Source of the DNA: Rhodothermia bacterium
GTDB taxonomy: Bacteria > Bacteroidota > Rhodothermia > Rhodothermales > JAAAOL01
NCBI GenBank assembly: GCA_030428385.1
Contig: JAUIDY010000012.1
Span: 1-64,000, forward strand
DNA: 64,000 nt
Direction of reading: 5' to 3'
The position numbers and the translations under genes are program-made. This document shows, in pieces, positions 7,421 through 60,257 of this stretch (position 1 is its first letter; the number at the start of each line of letters is the position of its first letter). Under the pieces are notes generated by a model. It searched no databases and was not told the DNA's origin. It saw only the letters and a program-made list of their open reading frames with translations.

Positions 7421-8785
7421 ATGAGCGACGACGCCCACCGCAACCCCTATCAGCTTACCACCGAAACGATTCTGCCGCCGCCTGCCGGATGGGGCGAGCG
7501 GATGAAATTTCTCGGCCCCGGCTTGATTCTTTCTGCCTCCATCGTGGGCTCCGGTGAACTAATCGCAACGACGCGCCTGGGGGCGGAAGTGGGCTTTACA
7601 ACCCTCTGGATCATTCTGATTAGCTGCTTGGCCAAGGTGGCGGTGCAGCTTGAGTTCGGCAAACGCGCCATCTATTCGGGCGAGTCGACGATGGCGTCGC
7701 TAAATACGCTGCCGGGGCCGCGCCTGGGCAAGGCCAACTGGTCCATCTGGGCGTGGCTGGCGCTGATGAGCGTGAAGCCGCTCCAGGTGGGTGGCATCGT
7801 CGGCGGCACGGCGCTGGTGCTGGCCATTGCCTTTCCGCAGATCCCCGTTGCTGTCTGGTGTTACATCATCGCTGTCGTCGTCTCGCTGATTATCTACAAA
7901 GGCAGCTACGACCCCATCGAAAAAATCTCCATCGTGCTGATCGCGCTGTTTACGCTGTTGACGCTGGTGTCGGTGGCGGCGCTTCAGTTTACCGACCTCG
8001 CCATCACCTTCGATGACTTGTTGAGCGGCCTCAGTTTCCAGCTTCCGGCAGCGTCGGTGGTGGTGGCGCTGGGGGCGTTTGGGCTGACGGGCATCGGCGG
8101 CGACGAGATTATGGCGTACAATTACTGGCTCATCGAAAAGGGGTATGCCTCGTACACCGGCCCGCGCGACGACAGCCCCGCCTGGACCGAACGCGCCCGT
8201 GGCTGGATCCGGGTGATGTACATCGATGCGCTGCTGTCGATGGTGATTTACACACTCATGACGGCGGCGTTTTACCTGCTCGGCGCGGCGATCCTGAACC
8301 GGCAGGGCTTACTCCCCGAAGGCATGGCGCTCGTCGAGACGTTGTCGGAGATGTACACGCAGAGCCTCGGGCCGTGGGCTGGGACGGTGTTCCTCGTCGG
8401 AGCGTTTGTGGTGCTGTTTTCCACGCTGTTCGGCGCGCTGGCGATCTGGACACGCCTCTTCGCCGACGCCTTCGGCCAGATCGGGTGGCTCGACTTTACG
8501 AACACGAAGGAGCGCCACCGGGCCATTGCCATCCTCGCGTGGGTCATCCCGCTGACGTGGGCCACCTCGTTTCTGGTGATGCAGGCTCCCGTTTTTATGA
8601 TCATCATCGGCGGCGTGGCCACGACGGTGATCTTGCTGCTCGTCGTTTTTGCCGCGCTATACTTTCGCTACCGCACCTTGCCGCCTGAGTTGCATCCGGG
8701 GCTGCTGTACGACACCGGCTTCTGGATCAGCGTCCTCGCCATCGCGATGGTGGCGCTGTATGGCGCGTATCGGCTGGTGGAGTAA
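7421..8785 (+). CDS. Divergent Nramp-family membrane transporter
   Basis: Product of 454 aa with about 11-12 hydrophobic helices and the fold signature of the Nramp (natural resistance-associated macrophage protein) family. TM1 keeps GPGLILSASIVGSGELIATT, but the metal-binding DPGN motif of true Mn/Fe transporters is replaced by VGSGE. In TM6 the MPH motif is replaced by GIGGDEIMAYNYW. The substrate is therefore probably not handled as in MntH. The inserted loop SYTGPRDDSPAWTERARGWIR after TM6 is hydrophilic. No Fur/MntR-type gene is adjacent. It stands alone between a double terminator and the first mini-hairpin array. Confidence 0.85.
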   Translation: MSDDAHRNPYQLTTETILPPPAGWGERMKFLGPGLILSASIVGSGELIATTRLGAEVGFTTLWIILISCLAKVAVQLEFGKRAIYSGESTMASLNTLPGPRLGKANWSIWAWLALMSVKPLQVGGIVGGTALVLAIAFPQIPVAVWCYIIAVVVSLIIYKGSYDPIEKISIVLIALFTLLTLVSVAALQFTDLAITFDDLLSGLSFQLPAASVVVALGAFGLTGIGGDEIMAYNYWLIEKGYASYTGPRDDSPAWTERARGWIRVMYIDALLSMVIYTLMTAAFYLLGAAILNRQGLLPEGMALVETLSEMYTQSLGPWAGTVFLVGAFVVLFSTLFGALAIWTRLFADAFGQIGWLDFTNTKERHRAIAILAWVIPLTWATSFLVMQAPVFMIIIGGVATTVILLLVVFAALYFRYRTLPPELHPGLLYDTGFWISVLAIAMVALYGAYRLVE

Positions 8786-9007
8786 TGCGGTCAGGAGCGC
8801 TACGGCGTCATTGGCTACGCGGTCATTTCGCCCCTGCGGGGCCGTCATTTATTGCGCACGTTTGATGGCGGGCAATGACGTGGACGACGTCCGCAAATGA
8901 CGCAGGCGCAGCCTGCTATGACGCACCGGCACGGTGCAAATGACGTGGGCGTAGCCCACAAGTGACGCCCGAAGGGCTTGTGACACAGGCCCTACCTGTA
9001 AATGACC
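8786..9007. repeat. Array A of TGAC-box mini-hairpins with GNA triloops
   Basis: Non-coding stretch between the Nramp-like and TIM-barrel genes. On the + strand TGAC boxes start at 8876, 8898, 8919, 8941, 8963, 8981 and 9003 (steps 22, 21, 22, 22, 18, 22). Each is followed by a small hairpin: GGAC-GAC-GTCC; GCAGGC-GCA-GCCTGC; GCACCG-GCA-CGGTGC; GTGGGC-GTA-GCCCAC; GCCC-GAA-GGGC; ACAGG-CCCTA-CCTGT. To the left, units run the other way (CGTCATT/GGTCATT boxes at about 8806-8850), including GCCCC-TGC-GGGGC (8830-8842), which is a GCA loop on the other strand, and weaker units with GTA loops. Stem sequences differ but pairing is kept. No T-tracts follow, so these are not simple terminators. 9008-9143 holds nothing else recognisable. 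Confidence 0.85.
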
Positions 9008-9143
9008 ACTCCCCCTGTCCCTTGGTGGATTCATGCGCCGTCACACGATATATTGACGTTGCTTTGTGAAAACACCTTGAATGCCCTCAACGCCCCGCCA
9101 CGCGTTGCCTGTGCTTGACCCACTCACCAACGTTGTACCTGTT

Positions 9144-10013
9144 ATGAAACGCACCACTGCCCCTGTTTCCCGGCGGGACTTTCTGAAACTTACCGGCGGC
9201 ACGCTCGCTGTCGCGGGACTGTCTGGGTTTCGTATGCCCCCGCTCGACTCAAAAATTCCCATTGGCACGCAGATGTGGGTGGTGCGCCAGGAGGCCGCCG
9301 AAGATCTGGCGGGTACGCTCAAAGCCCTTGCTGATCTTGGCTACCAGGGCGTTGAGTTTGCCGACGACTACTTCGGGCACGAGATCAAAGACATCCGTAT
9401 GATGCTAGATGACAACGGCCTGGAAGTGATGGGCAACCACATCTTCCTGCAGAGCATGCAAGGCGAGGAGTTGTCCAAGACCCTGGAAGTGAACGAGGCG
9501 CTGGGGGCCAAGAATCTGATCGTCCGCTGGCTGCGCCCCGAGCAGTATGCGAACAAAGACGCCCTGCTGACGCTCTCTGAGGAGATGAATGCAGTCGCTG
9601 CCCAGCTACGTCCGCACGGCATGCGCGTGGGGTATCACAACCACGCCGAGATCTTCGCTGTGCATGACGGCGAGATGGCCTGGAACATCCTCGCCGACAA
9701 CACAGACGACGATGTGATTATGCAACTCGACACCGGCAACGCGATGCACGCGCCGGAGCCGCCCGATGTGGTGGAACTGATGCGCCGCAACGCAGGCCGC
9801 ACCCTCACCGTTCACATCAAGCCGTTCTCCGCAGAAACGCCCGCCGCGTACATCGGCCAGGACGACATTGACTGGAAGTCGTTTATTCAGCTTGCCGAAA
9901 CCGTGGGCGGCACCGAGTGCTACATCATCGAATACGAAATCCCCGGCACGCCGCCTCTCAAAGCGCTGGAGGCCAACATCGCGCTGTTTAAGGAGCAGGT
10001 GAAGGCGGCATAG
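9144..10013 (+). CDS. Tat-exported sugar phosphate isomerase/epimerase-like TIM-barrel protein
   Basis: Product of 289 aa. The start ATG at 9144 places the twin-arginine motif (VSRRDFLKLTGG) and hydrophobic core at the N-terminus; upstream codons would push it inward. The mature part is an AP-endonuclease-2/xylose-isomerase-like TIM barrel: GTQMWVVRQEA, LGYQGVEFADDYFG, MRVGYHNHAEIF with metal-binding His, MQLDTGNAMHAPEPPDV, TVHIKPFS, and the terminal Glu in CYIIEYEIPG. Exported members of this family are common beside GMC oxidoreductases in sugar-degradation loci, and one follows at 10374. Function beyond sugar isomerisation or epimerisation is uncertain. Confidence 0.88.
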   Translation: MKRTTAPVSRRDFLKLTGGTLAVAGLSGFRMPPLDSKIPIGTQMWVVRQEAAEDLAGTLKALADLGYQGVEFADDYFGHEIKDIRMMLDDNGLEVMGNHIFLQSMQGEELSKTLEVNEALGAKNLIVRWLRPEQYANKDALLTLSEEMNAVAAQLRPHGMRVGYHNHAEIFAVHDGEMAWNILADNTDDDVIMQLDTGNAMHAPEPPDVVELMRRNAGRTLTVHIKPFSAETPAAYIGQDDIDWKSFIQLAETVGGTECYIIEYEIPGTPPLKALEANIALFKEQVKAA

Positions 10014-10017
10014 CGGG

Positions 10018-10316
10018 TCACGTGCCCTTCGGGCGTCATGGATGGCCACTAGCGTGCTTCGCCCGCGTCATTTGGTTAAACTACCTTGCAATGATAACGT
10101 GTGATCTCGACAACTGAAAAGGAGGAGACACGAGGGCGAAGCCCGACTGACGCAAGTAAATCTTCCACCTTCAGGGTGAGCGAAACGATAACGTGGGAGA
10201 TCTCTCACATACGTTCGAGATGACAAGAGTGGACGTTTTGCTGAGTTTCCCAACAATCAATGACCCCATGACCGCCCCGCAGGGGCGTAATGACGCCCGA
10301 AGGGCTCATGACACAA
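10018..10316. repeat. Array B of TGAC-box mini-hairpins, downstream of the TIM-barrel gene
   Basis: Non-coding stretch before the GMC gene. Units in reverse orientation: GCCC-TTC-GGGC followed by GTCAT (10024-10039), and a weaker one ending GCGTCATTT (10051-10073). A forward-type hairpin GGGC-GAA-GCCC sits at 10134-10144, followed by TGACG (10148-10152). Forward units: TGACC then CGCCCC-GCA-GGGGCG (10273-10287), and TGACG with GCCC-GAA-GGGC (10291-10305) followed by TCATGACAC. The last unit nearly repeats one in array A (8963-8986). So the TIM-barrel gene is flanked by two arrays of the same family. A second element (10098-10245) is embedded here. Confidence 0.8.
10098..10245. repeat. Dispersed ATCTC/GAGAT element, copy 1, interrupted by a mini-hairpin
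   Basis: Begins CGTGTGATCTCGA and continues to GGAGGAGA (10121-10128); resumes at 10195 with GGGAGATCTCTCAC and ends TTCGAGATGACAAGAG...TTTTGCTG. The same blocks in the same order occur at 49878-49980, where they are nearly contiguous. The extra about 70 bp here holds GGGC-GAA-GCCC and a second GATAACGTG. It may be an insertion into the element or a tandem pair of partial copies. Confidence 0.55.
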
Positions 10317-53636: not shown

Positions 53637-53686
53637 GCACCGTTGCCAGCGTAGAGCACCGTTGCCAGCGTAGAGCACCGTTGCCA
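53637..53686. repeat. 19-bp tandem repeat, about 2.6 copies
   Basis: GCACCGTTGCCAGCGTAGA repeated at 53637-53655 and 53656-53674, with a partial third (53675-53686). Directly downstream of repeat X copy C. 53687-53747 shows nothing recognisable. Confidence 0.9.
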
Positions 53687-57701: not shown

Positions 57702-60257
57702 TTAATGAACATGAATAACCGGTTGGGTGATGGTTTGTCCGTTCGCCTCAGCGCGAAGGACGTACAGTCCGCTCGGAAGCGAATCCGCGTTCCAAGTGAC
57801 CGCGTGCGTGCCCTGCCCAAGCCATCCGTCGTGCAGCAGCGCGACCTGTCGGCCTAGTCCGTCATATATGGCCAGTTGCACGGACTGGGGCGTGTCCAGC
57901 GTAAGGGTGAACTGCGTAGATTCGGCAAACGGATTGGGATACGGTGCGGAGAGTTGATGGTTCGTTGGAACGTCGGGTGCCTCGGCAATACTGACCTGAA
58001 TTGATGGATCGGTGTAGATGGCGAAATTGACCGTTTGGATGCCCGTGTTGGTCTCGGAGAAATCACCACCCACGTACAGGCTGTTGCCACTGGCATCGAA
58101 GGCGTAGACGTCGCCCGTGGTGCCTCGGAGGCTGAGGAGGCCGCCGCCCACGTCGTGCCACATGCCGCCGCTCCACCGGGCGAGGGCATCGGCGTTGGGG
58201 TTGTTGCCTGCGTTGGAAAACACGCCGCCCACGTACAGGTCTTTGCCAATGTCGGCGAGTTCGTAGACGTAAAAGTCAAGCGGCTCGCCGACAGCGTTCC
58301 ATCCCGCGCCGTCCCACCGAGCGAGGTAGCTGGCCCCCGGCGTCCCGCCCGCGTTGAGGAAACGCCCCCCGGCATACAGGTCGCCATTGCTGACGGCCAG
58401 GGCATGCACCGCCCCGCTGAGTCCCGTCCCTACGCTTTGCCACGCTGCGCCATCCCACTGGGCGATGTTGTCCGCCTGGATGTTGCCCCCGGCGTCGAGG
58501 AAGGCGCCGCCCGCCACGAGGGTGCCGCCGTGGAACGCCAGGGCATCCACACGGCCCGTCAGCCCCGTTCCGAGGCTGTGCCACTGGCTACCATCCCACC
58601 GGGCCACATAATCGGCATCGGGCAGGCCGCCGCCATCGACAAAGAAACCGCCCGCGTACAGGTCGTCGCCATCAAAAAGCAGCGCGTTGACGCCCAGAAA
58701 CGCGTCGTTGTTGAGGGGCATGAGGCCGGTGCCCAGGTTGTCCCATTGGCTGCCATCCCAGCGGGCCACGCCATCGGCGTTAGAGAGACCGCCCGCGTTG
58801 AAGAAGGCCCCGCCCACGTACAGGTCGTCGCCCTTAAAGGCCAGCGCATTGACGACCCCATTGAGTCCTTCGCCGACGTTGCGCCACCCAGTGCCGTCCC
58901 AATGCGCGATGCCGCCGAGTCCGGTGGCGTGATTGCCTTCGGGGTTGAGGAAGTCGCCGCCGATATACACATCGTCGCCCTTTACAGCAACCGCATACAC
59001 GGTGCCCGTGACCCCATTGCCTACCGGACGCCATGCTTGGCCTGTCCAGCGCACGAAGTTGGTGTAGTTGAAGTTGAGGCCTCCGCCTTCGTTGAGAATG
59101 GTGCCGCCTGCGTACAGGTCATCGCCGAAGGCGGCAAGGGTGGTGGGAATACCGAGCAGCCCCGCGCCGAGGTCGCGCCATGCGGCACCATCCCACTGGG
59201 CAATGCCGCCCGCGCCGGACGCCACACCGCCTTCCGGGTTGAAGAAGTTGCCGCTCGCATACAAGGCGTCGTTGTACACATGCAGATCATAAACTTCTTC
59301 GGTGATGCCCACGCCCACGTTTTGCCACGCGGCGCCGTCCCACTGGGCAATGTAGTCGGCGTCCGTGTTGCCACCTGCGTCCGTAAAGTCGCCACCGGCA
59401 TACAACGTGCCGTTGTACACTTCGAGGGTGTTCACATTGCGGTTGAGTCCGGTGCCGAGGTTGTGCCACTGGCCGCCATCCCACCGGGCCACGCGGTCGG
59501 CGTCGGTGTTGCCGCCCGCGTCGCGGAATTCGCCCGCCGCGAACAGGTCGTTGCCCATCACCGTCAGCGCCAAGACTTCGCCGTTGAGGCCGGTGCCGAT
59601 GCTGTGCCACTGGCTGCCATCCCACCGGGCGAGGTTGTCGGCGTTGGCATTGCCGCCTGCGTTGTTAAAGAGGCCGCCGATGTACAGATCGCCGCCCAGG
59701 ACCGCGAGGGCATTCACCGTGCCGTTAAACGCCGTGCCCAGGCTTCGCCACTGCTCGCCGTCCCATTGCGCCACCGTGCGGATATTGCCACCCGACAGTT
59801 GGAACGCGCCGCCCACAAACAGGTCGTCGCCGATAAAAGCCAGCGCCAGCACCGTACCCAAAACGGTCTCCGTCCCGATGGTTTCCCACTGCGCCCCATC
59901 CCAGCGGACGAGTCCCTGGAAGCCGCCGACATACAAGTAGCCATCGTGGGCCAGCAAGGCGGTGGGTTGCTGAGCACCGTTCAGGTTCAGGCGGGCGTAG
60001 GCCAGGCCGCTGAATTGGGTATCCCAGCCGTCCTGCTGGTCGGTTTTTACGAAGCGTGGCGTCCCATCGGCATGGGGGTGCAGCGTGTAGCCTGTCACAT
60101 CGAAGCTGCCTTGGGCGTCGGTGCGGAGTGTGCCATCGGCGTTGAGGGCGGTGGCGAGGGCGGGCAACGCAGACAAACCCTGGGGCTGCGGCTGGGCGTT
60201 GGCCATCCGGGAAGGGAGAAACAGGAAGAAGAGCGCAAAAACAACAGTGGCTTTCAT
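57702..60257 (-). CDS. Secreted propeller-repeat protein with type IX-like sorting domain
   Basis: Product of 851 aa. Signal peptide MKATVVFALFFLFLPSRMAN (cleavage after NAQ). Residues about 110-750 hold 13 full repeats of about 47 aa plus a partial one, each with the pattern (L/V)ARWDG..W..(L/I)GTGL.G.V.AL....D(L)Y.GG.F..AGG; 14 blades would fit two seven-bladed beta-propellers. The C-terminus is a sorting domain: HQLSAPYPNPFAESTQFTL, LAIYDGLGRQVALLHDGWLG, PSGLYVLRAEANGQ. Start at 60257. Divergent from the sigma/kinase module. Confidence 0.9.
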   Translation of the reverse strand: MKATVVFALFFLFLPSRMANAQPQPQGLSALPALATALNADGTLRTDAQGSFDVTGYTLHPHADGTPRFVKTDQQDGWDTQFSGLAYARLNLNGAQQPTALLAHDGYLYVGGFQGLVRWDGAQWETIGTETVLGTVLALAFIGDDLFVGGAFQLSGGNIRTVAQWDGEQWRSLGTAFNGTVNALAVLGGDLYIGGLFNNAGGNANADNLARWDGSQWHSIGTGLNGEVLALTVMGNDLFAAGEFRDAGGNTDADRVARWDGGQWHNLGTGLNRNVNTLEVYNGTLYAGGDFTDAGGNTDADYIAQWDGAAWQNVGVGITEEVYDLHVYNDALYASGNFFNPEGGVASGAGGIAQWDGAAWRDLGAGLLGIPTTLAAFGDDLYAGGTILNEGGGLNFNYTNFVRWTGQAWRPVGNGVTGTVYAVAVKGDDVYIGGDFLNPEGNHATGLGGIAHWDGTGWRNVGEGLNGVVNALAFKGDDLYVGGAFFNAGGLSNADGVARWDGSQWDNLGTGLMPLNNDAFLGVNALLFDGDDLYAGGFFVDGGGLPDADYVARWDGSQWHSLGTGLTGRVDALAFHGGTLVAGGAFLDAGGNIQADNIAQWDGAAWQSVGTGLSGAVHALAVSNGDLYAGGRFLNAGGTPGASYLARWDGAGWNAVGEPLDFYVYELADIGKDLYVGGVFSNAGNNPNADALARWSGGMWHDVGGGLLSLRGTTGDVYAFDASGNSLYVGGDFSETNTGIQTVNFAIYTDPSIQVSIAEAPDVPTNHQLSAPYPNPFAESTQFTLTLDTPQSVQLAIYDGLGRQVALLHDGWLGQGTHAVTWNADSLPSGLYVLRAEANGQTITQPVIHVH

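Follow-up and report, generated by a model that had tools for sequence, protein, structure and literature searches.

The window, by which we mean the whole stretch of 64,000 nucleotides (nt) of Rhodothermia DNA analysed here, harbors an array of small tagged hairpins that starts directly 3′ of the stop codon of the gene at 7421-8785 and ends upstream of the gene starting at 9081. In the window sequence, seven TGAC tags lie on the plus strand at steps of 22, 21, 22, 22, 18 and 22 nt, of which the first six each carry a hairpin on their 3′ side and the seventh carries none, and four tags lie on the minus strand (Table 1). An earlier note, made from the letters alone, had described seven TGAC boxes at steps of 18-22 with hairpins after six of them, and this was confirmed, with the corrections that one step is 21 and that the sixth loop comprises 5 nt. 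The note had also described opposite-facing units that meet at about 8850-8880; this was borne out, the two halves diverging from 8848-8875.

Table 1. Tags, hairpin units and arrays in the window.
Feature	Position	Strand	Details
Minus-strand half of divergent array, four tags	8790-8847	-	tags 8844-8847, 8822-8825, 8807-8810, 8790-8793
Hairpin after tag 8844-8847	8830-8842	-	GCCCC-GCA-GGGGC, 5 bp
Centre of divergent array	8848-8875		28 nt, differing between arrays (not conserved)
Plus-strand half of divergent array, seven tags	8876-9006	+	tags start at 8876, 8898, 8919, 8941, 8963, 8981, 9003
TGAC + hairpin	8876-8894	+	GTGGAC-GAC-GTCCGC, 5/6 pairs, T.G at pair 2
TGAC + hairpin	8898-8916	+	GCAGGC-GCA-GCCTGC, 6 bp; same core at three unrelated loci
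TGAC + hairpin	8919-8937	+	GCACCG-GCA-CGGTGC, 6 bp
TGAC + hairpin	8941-8959	+	GTGGGC-GTA-GCCCAC, 6 bp; same core in array L056
TGAC + hairpin	8963-8977	+	GCCC-GAA-GGGC, 4 bp, 18-nt unit
TGAC + hairpin	8981-8999	+	ACAGG-CCCTA-CCTGT, 5 bp, 5-nt loop
Closing TGAC tag without hairpin	9003-9006	+	
Unit directly 3′ of stop codon of gene 9081-10013	10017-10039	-	ATGAC-GCCC-GAA-GGGC-ACGTGAC
Second array	10268-10312	+	CGCCCC-GCA-GGGGCG, then GCCC-GAA-GGGC

In the window, TGAC is followed seven times by a GNA hairpin with a stem of 4 bp or more, whereas 60 first-order Markov simulations yielded 0.18 such cases on average and at most 2. A loose spaced pattern gave nine matches where 2.3 are expected, and none of 100 shuffles reached nine. 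Outside the arrays there are decayed mini-hairpins at 10050-10072 and 10130-10152 (GTGCTTCGCCCGC-GTCATT; AGGGCGAAGCCCGACTGACG), which probably are old units. The window further contains a perfect 19-nt tandem repeat of 2.6 copies (53637-53686) and a 141-nt repeat of 2.4 copies with 70% matches (59423-59765). Terminators were rejected as candidates, because the handful of matches to the pattern close to the array lack a proper T run.

The earlier note had proposed to look for further units elsewhere in the genome, and these were found. In the host genome (6.19 Mb), a pattern that sets no pairing condition on the arms gave 99 matches (54+45), as opposed to 12 (7+5) with the reversed pattern as control, and a stricter pattern gave 36 versus 0. 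The dispersed unit comprises about 28 nt and reads AATGAC-arm-GNA-arm-NNATGAC, and in the arrays that were sampled, a complete unit is composed of ATGAC, a 6-nt arm, a 3-nt loop, a 6-nt arm, 2 nt and ATGAC, with a period of 22. The stems, of 2-6 bp, start with RC, the loop has 3 (or 4) nt, and the tail is NNA. Adjacent tags are spaced by 22 (49 times), 10 (19), 14 (12), 21 (11) and 18 (5) nt, and spacings of 12, 16 and 20 are scarce (1, 0 and 3, respectively), counts that describe arrays rather than the genome at large, because the loci were taken for containing arrays. The classes of 10, 14, 18 and 22 thus form 4-nt steps, equivalent to stems of 0, 2, 4 and 6 bp, as exemplified by RC-GNA-GY for a spacing of 14 and GCCC-GAA-GGGC for 18. 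Within the 2-bp form lies d(GCGAAGC), an unusually stable DNA mini-hairpin.

Stems in the host include GCAGGC, GCGGAC, ACGGGC, ACGGAC, GCATCC, AGCCCC, GCGAGC, GTGGGC and GCACCG. Among 46 distinct ATGAC-N17-ATGAC sequences, which were selected irrespective of their arms, pairing is seen at 225 of 276 arm positions, versus 115 ± 8.6 (maximum 149) in 2000 shuffles in which the 3′ arms were dealt out at random. A control in which the register was slid gave 19-29% pairing versus 84% in register, for 48 distinct units selected with the arms ignored. Hence, the arms covary well beyond both the shuffled and the slid controls, as the earlier note had supposed. Transitions account for about half of the single mismatches, and G.T is no commoner than A.C (10 versus 16), a profile as expected of a decaying DNA palindrome and unlike that of a maintained RNA helix.

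With respect to dispersal, seven cores recur, each in two to four places that are unrelated. Pairwise comparison of loci that share a core gave 95-100% identity between positions -1 and +18, a stretch that begins with the base preceding TGAC and closes with the last base of the hairpin, and 79-84% across the following tag, beyond which the similarity drops to background. The array in the window and array L056 have an ordered run of hairpins in common (GTCCGC, GCACC, GTGGGC), with one extra unit in the window, which argues that blocks are copied and that units are gained or lost. Neighbouring units that face in opposite directions are divergent in nine cases and convergent in none (tags 20:6), which supports the symmetric arrangement that the earlier note had proposed, as a divergent one. 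The units are largely intergenic, namely 37 of 43 as judged by a crude ORF caller that leaves 17% of the bases intergenic, and all nine in a contig of the Bacteroidales genome G114.

A scan of GTDB species genomes returned 60 stretches, most of them with real units, from several phyla. Carriers are found among Bacteroidales, other Bacteroidota, Aminicenantes, Verrucomicrobia, Kiritimatiellae, Ignavibacteriales, Chlorobiota, Caldithrix and Desulfobacterales; a few matches in Proteobacteria were discarded as chance, since their arms are unpaired. The same design is present in 27 genomes besides the host, often with tandem GA.GA mismatches. Many units have the form RC-GA-NC-GNA-GN-GA-GY, in which tandem G.A/A.G separates two outer from two inner pairs and the loop is GNA, and the tandem GA.GA occurs in 26 of 50 distinct cores from the 28 genomes. 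Pair 1 matches in 43 and pair 5 in 44 of these 50 cores, both more than in any of 5000 shuffles; the outer pair 1 alternates between G-C and A-T and the inner pair 5 between G-C, A-T and C-G, with matching partners. The G...A loops and the C-G closing pair are no evidence in this set of 28 genomes, because the search pattern demanded both. In the host set, which came from a pattern without a demand on the loop, the dominant loops are still GNA and ANA, closed by a C-G pair. The folding program gives no credit to GA.GA hairpins.

The tag differs from genome to genome, with AATGAC in G114, AATGTC in its relative G139 and AATATC in G153, and it usually is identical on both sides of the hairpin within a genome. 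Units are present in one of 394 sampled genomes of the phylum. Within the order, a generic-tag pattern found them in the host and its one family relative only, and around G114 two of 26 genomes carry them as judged by the AATGAC-tag pattern. The pattern had no match in viral contigs, the array of the window had none in phages, and one Bacteroidales array had none in plasmids. In three Bacteroidales loci, 11-nt tandem repeats that consist of the tag only (AATGAC-YAYYK) are interleaved with hairpin units, and their tags are uniform locally and specific to the array (GAC, GTC, TAC, TTC). Arrays in three Aminicenantes and two other Bacteroidales loci often adjoin simple repeats rich in A+T, of the GGAATTTG / GGGATTTC type.

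The earlier note had suggested that the form that matters may be single-stranded DNA rather than RNA, and this is now favoured, by indirect evidence. At the genome level, ten of ten tetraloops are GNYA, i.e., with a pyrimidine at the third position, and none is GNRA; two GNRA loops (GCAA, GTAA) occur in the host. GNYA loops belong to the d(cGNNAg) class, which is known to be stable as DNA (Nakano 2002, as cited in PMC8373063), and differ from the GNRA loops of RNA; d(GNA) with a C-G closing pair is covered by the literature on stable hairpins (PMC5815330). The GA.GA mismatches and the GNA loop are present on one strand only, which argues that the recognised form is one single strand, and the lack of a G.U bias together with the GNYA loops favours DNA over RNA. 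A search of Rfam gave no match at E≤1, and the units show neither the G.U tolerance nor the tetraloops of a structured RNA.

The sole Y1_Tnp gene found in the host (contig C203, 57856-58059) is cut by the contig end, with a single flank visible, and this 3′ flank has a GTAG palindrome, GTAGGGGCAACC..GGTTGCCCC, and no TGAC units. The RAYT/TnpA_REP gene that the earlier note had proposed to look for in the genome thus came down to a partial Y1_Tnp gene with a GTAG-type flank. The host contig at 57856-58109 (also covered by L031 and L069, 7700-8110 of the latter) encodes the C-terminal half of a Y1 transposase with the motif YIHNNP, fused to a GGCGGCGTGCGTTCCAACATCA tandem repeat. None of 59 Y1_Tnp/RAYT loci (29 + 30, taken from the order and from unit-bearing genomes) has an adjacent unit with a stem of at least 4 bp. 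Y1_Tnp genes are present in 26 of 27 unit-bearing genomes, and likewise in 45 of the 58 relatives of G114 (G114 and G139 excluded; G153, which is among this set, has a unit with another tag), such that their presence does not discriminate, the base rate in relatives being too high. When 365 ORFs near arrays were clustered, no gene family clearly recurred across genomes beyond a few, and the clusters mostly represent one locus fetched twice. In G114, a long tandem array of units of about 46 nt that end in GGTGCGTAG lies upstream of a Y1_Tnp gene (L178, 900-1440) and is partly N-masked.

The family looks like a mobile repeat, in that its modules have sharp edges, recur as identical copies at unrelated loci, are patchily distributed and exchange their tags. 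We therefore favour, at roughly an even chance of being correct, a non-autonomous, REP-like family of single-stranded DNA hairpin elements that would be copied in trans by a separate enzyme. It builds on what is observed, namely the anatomy, the arm pairing, the dispersal of identical modules, the divergent arrays, and a tag that varies from one genome to another and matches across the hairpin; the mobilising step is our inference. The copied module would comprise about 28 nt, namely an AATNNC tag, a hairpin of 0, 2, 4 or 6 bp that would be closed by C-GNA-G or C-GNYA-G, two to three linker bases and the next tag. A nuclease or strand transferase that processes single-stranded DNA may act in trans and recognise the folded hairpin by its shape, and the tag may serve as both guide and target, in the logic of IS200/IS605 and REP, such that the module would be inserted 3′ of an existing tag. 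In REP and IS200/IS605 (IS608), the foot tetranucleotide guides the site of cleavage, and a changed guide retargets it (PMC8266576). As each insertion would bring a new tag, arrays would grow outward and head-to-tail, and arm pairing would be retained because copying is restricted to modules that fold, with help from templated correction of one arm by the other. Counting against this mechanism, the tag-only tandem repeats of 10-11 nt and the neighbouring simple repeats also fit local slippage, the GA.GA hairpins receive no credit from the folding program, and neither the Y1_Tnp loci nor the gene families near arrays pointed to an enzyme. A further step would set the family apart from REP/RAYT, as mobile single-stranded mini-hairpins that are recognised by their shape (C-GNA-G/C-GNYA-G loop, sheared GA pairs) rather than by the sequence of the stem, carry an exchangeable AATNNC guide/target tag and are moved by an enzyme family so far unconnected with repeats; this we entertain tentatively, as something that may well turn out otherwise.

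The main rival is that the arrays are a by-product of replication, in which lagging-strand slippage and template switching generate and spread the units and quasipalindrome correction, by copying one arm from the other, matches their arms, with no dedicated enzyme or function. Template switching can indeed create and maintain perfect stems (PMC8794818), the tag-only tandem 10-11-mers are homogeneous locally, and in several genomes the 3′ arm GCGAGC is partnered by a 5′ arm of either GCGAGC or GCTCGC, which is what a one-step rewriting of GA to TC would produce. However, identical, sharp-edged modules at unrelated loci and strand-specific GNA/GNYA loops are unexpected of a universal replication error, the GA.GA mismatches are retained uncorrected in about half of the cores, and the occurrence is rare and patchy, and we thus judge this explanation to be rather improbable, though a serious one.

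We hold it for unlikely that the units are regulatory or structural elements of the host, acting as double-stranded DNA or RNA, for instance by ending transcripts, by stabilising mRNA or as a head-to-tail array to which a protein binds at steps of 10-11 bp. Their intergenic location, often directly after stop codons (window 8786, 10014), would suit such a role, as would the spacing of 10, 11 and 22 nt, which is near one or two helical turns, and one half-unit appeared terminator-like in the pattern scan. However, both orientations occur inside one array, the mismatches are strand-asymmetric, the Rfam, G.U and tetraloop results do not fit an RNA, and the units are nearly absent from relatives with similar gene content. 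That they represent GTAG REPs of a divergent branch, moved by a RAYT from their own genome, we regard as quite improbable. The layout of a tag plus a short hairpin is shared, a REP with a 5-bp stem and a 2-nt spacer is known (PMC8266576), RAYTs of subclass 2.6 in Bacteroidetes have "atypical" flanking structures (PMC6006769), and nearly all unit-bearing genomes have Y1_Tnp; set against this are the 59 Y1_Tnp loci without adjacent units with stems of 4 bp or more, the relatives that have Y1_Tnp and no TGAC-tagged unit, and the GTAG palindrome at the visible flank of the host gene.

In most families of palindromic repeats, one stem sequence is kept, and recognition by sequence therefore is inseparable from recognition by shape. 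In the TGAC family, the stems vary freely within one genome, and the pairing, loop type and tag are constant, which makes recognition as folded single-stranded DNA testable in bacterial repeats. Furthermore, relatives with a swapped tag and the same hairpin (AATGAC, AATGTC) constitute a natural experiment on guide/target specificity.

Among known systems, CRISPR was rejected, because most "spacers" in the 22-nt units are hairpins and several of them recur at other loci. We found no link to the repeats of Porphyromonas gingivalis (PMC5771137). The open-access literature, including that on Bacteroidetes, gave no description of such repeats, which is weak evidence of novelty, since figures and subscription papers are outside its scope. 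The palindromes of Streptomyces telomeres likewise form series of small single-stranded DNA hairpins, whose loops are GNA (GCA/GGA) and which contain sheared purine pairs (PMC7205883), but they are located at the termini of linear replicons rather than dispersed, whereas TGAC units are internal, intergenic and tagged. The subterminal hairpins of IS200/IS605 resemble the units in that a hairpin and a short guide set the tetranucleotide for cleavage and target, with insertion 3′ of the target. In contrast, the TGAC module has about 28 nt and no transposase gene inside or beside it; similarity stops at the unit edges and no neighbour gene clearly recurs, unlike in an IS200/IS605 or MITE derivative, which would have a transposase or longer terminal inverted repeats around a shared interior.

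CGTC-tagged REPs, whose hosts include Bacteroidetes/Chlorobi and for which no dedicated transposase was found (Di Nocera 2013, PMC3733652), have stems of 8-9 bp that start with AT pairs, loops of 4-5 nt and CCA tails, and are mostly head-head dimers. They share with the TGAC units the lack of an adjacent dedicated transposase, and TGACG read backwards is CGTCA. The base after TGAC is G in some units and A in others, and other genomes have AATGTC or AATATC. The TGAC units differ by stems of 0, 2, 4 or 6 bp, GNA loops and head-to-tail arrays, and thus follow none of the CGTC rules for stem, loop and tail; classical CGTC REPs are absent from the sampled DNA of unit-bearing genomes. The CGTC REPs have been without an enzyme since 2013, and the TGAC family raises the same question with sharper module borders.

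The closest likeness is to GTAG REPs/BIMEs with their RAYT (TnpA-REP), which also are short, dispersed, intergenic palindromes in many copies with a tetranucleotide at the foot, inverted pairs and single-strand recognition. Of the resemblance to REP/RAYT that the earlier note had seen, the layout of tag plus hairpin stands, and the link to RAYT does not. The TGAC units differ by an AATNNC tag on both sides (AATGAC, AATGTC or AATATC in place of GTAG or GT[AG]G at the foot), 22-nt tandem arrays, GNA loops, many unrelated stems per genome, and the lack of a RAYT flanked by the repeat, as judged from the 59 loci and the one visible flank in the host. The TGAC family thus is REP-like in its workings, and probably an as yet unnamed relative of the known mobile palindromic repeats; we file it as a new variant among the tagged palindromic repeats.
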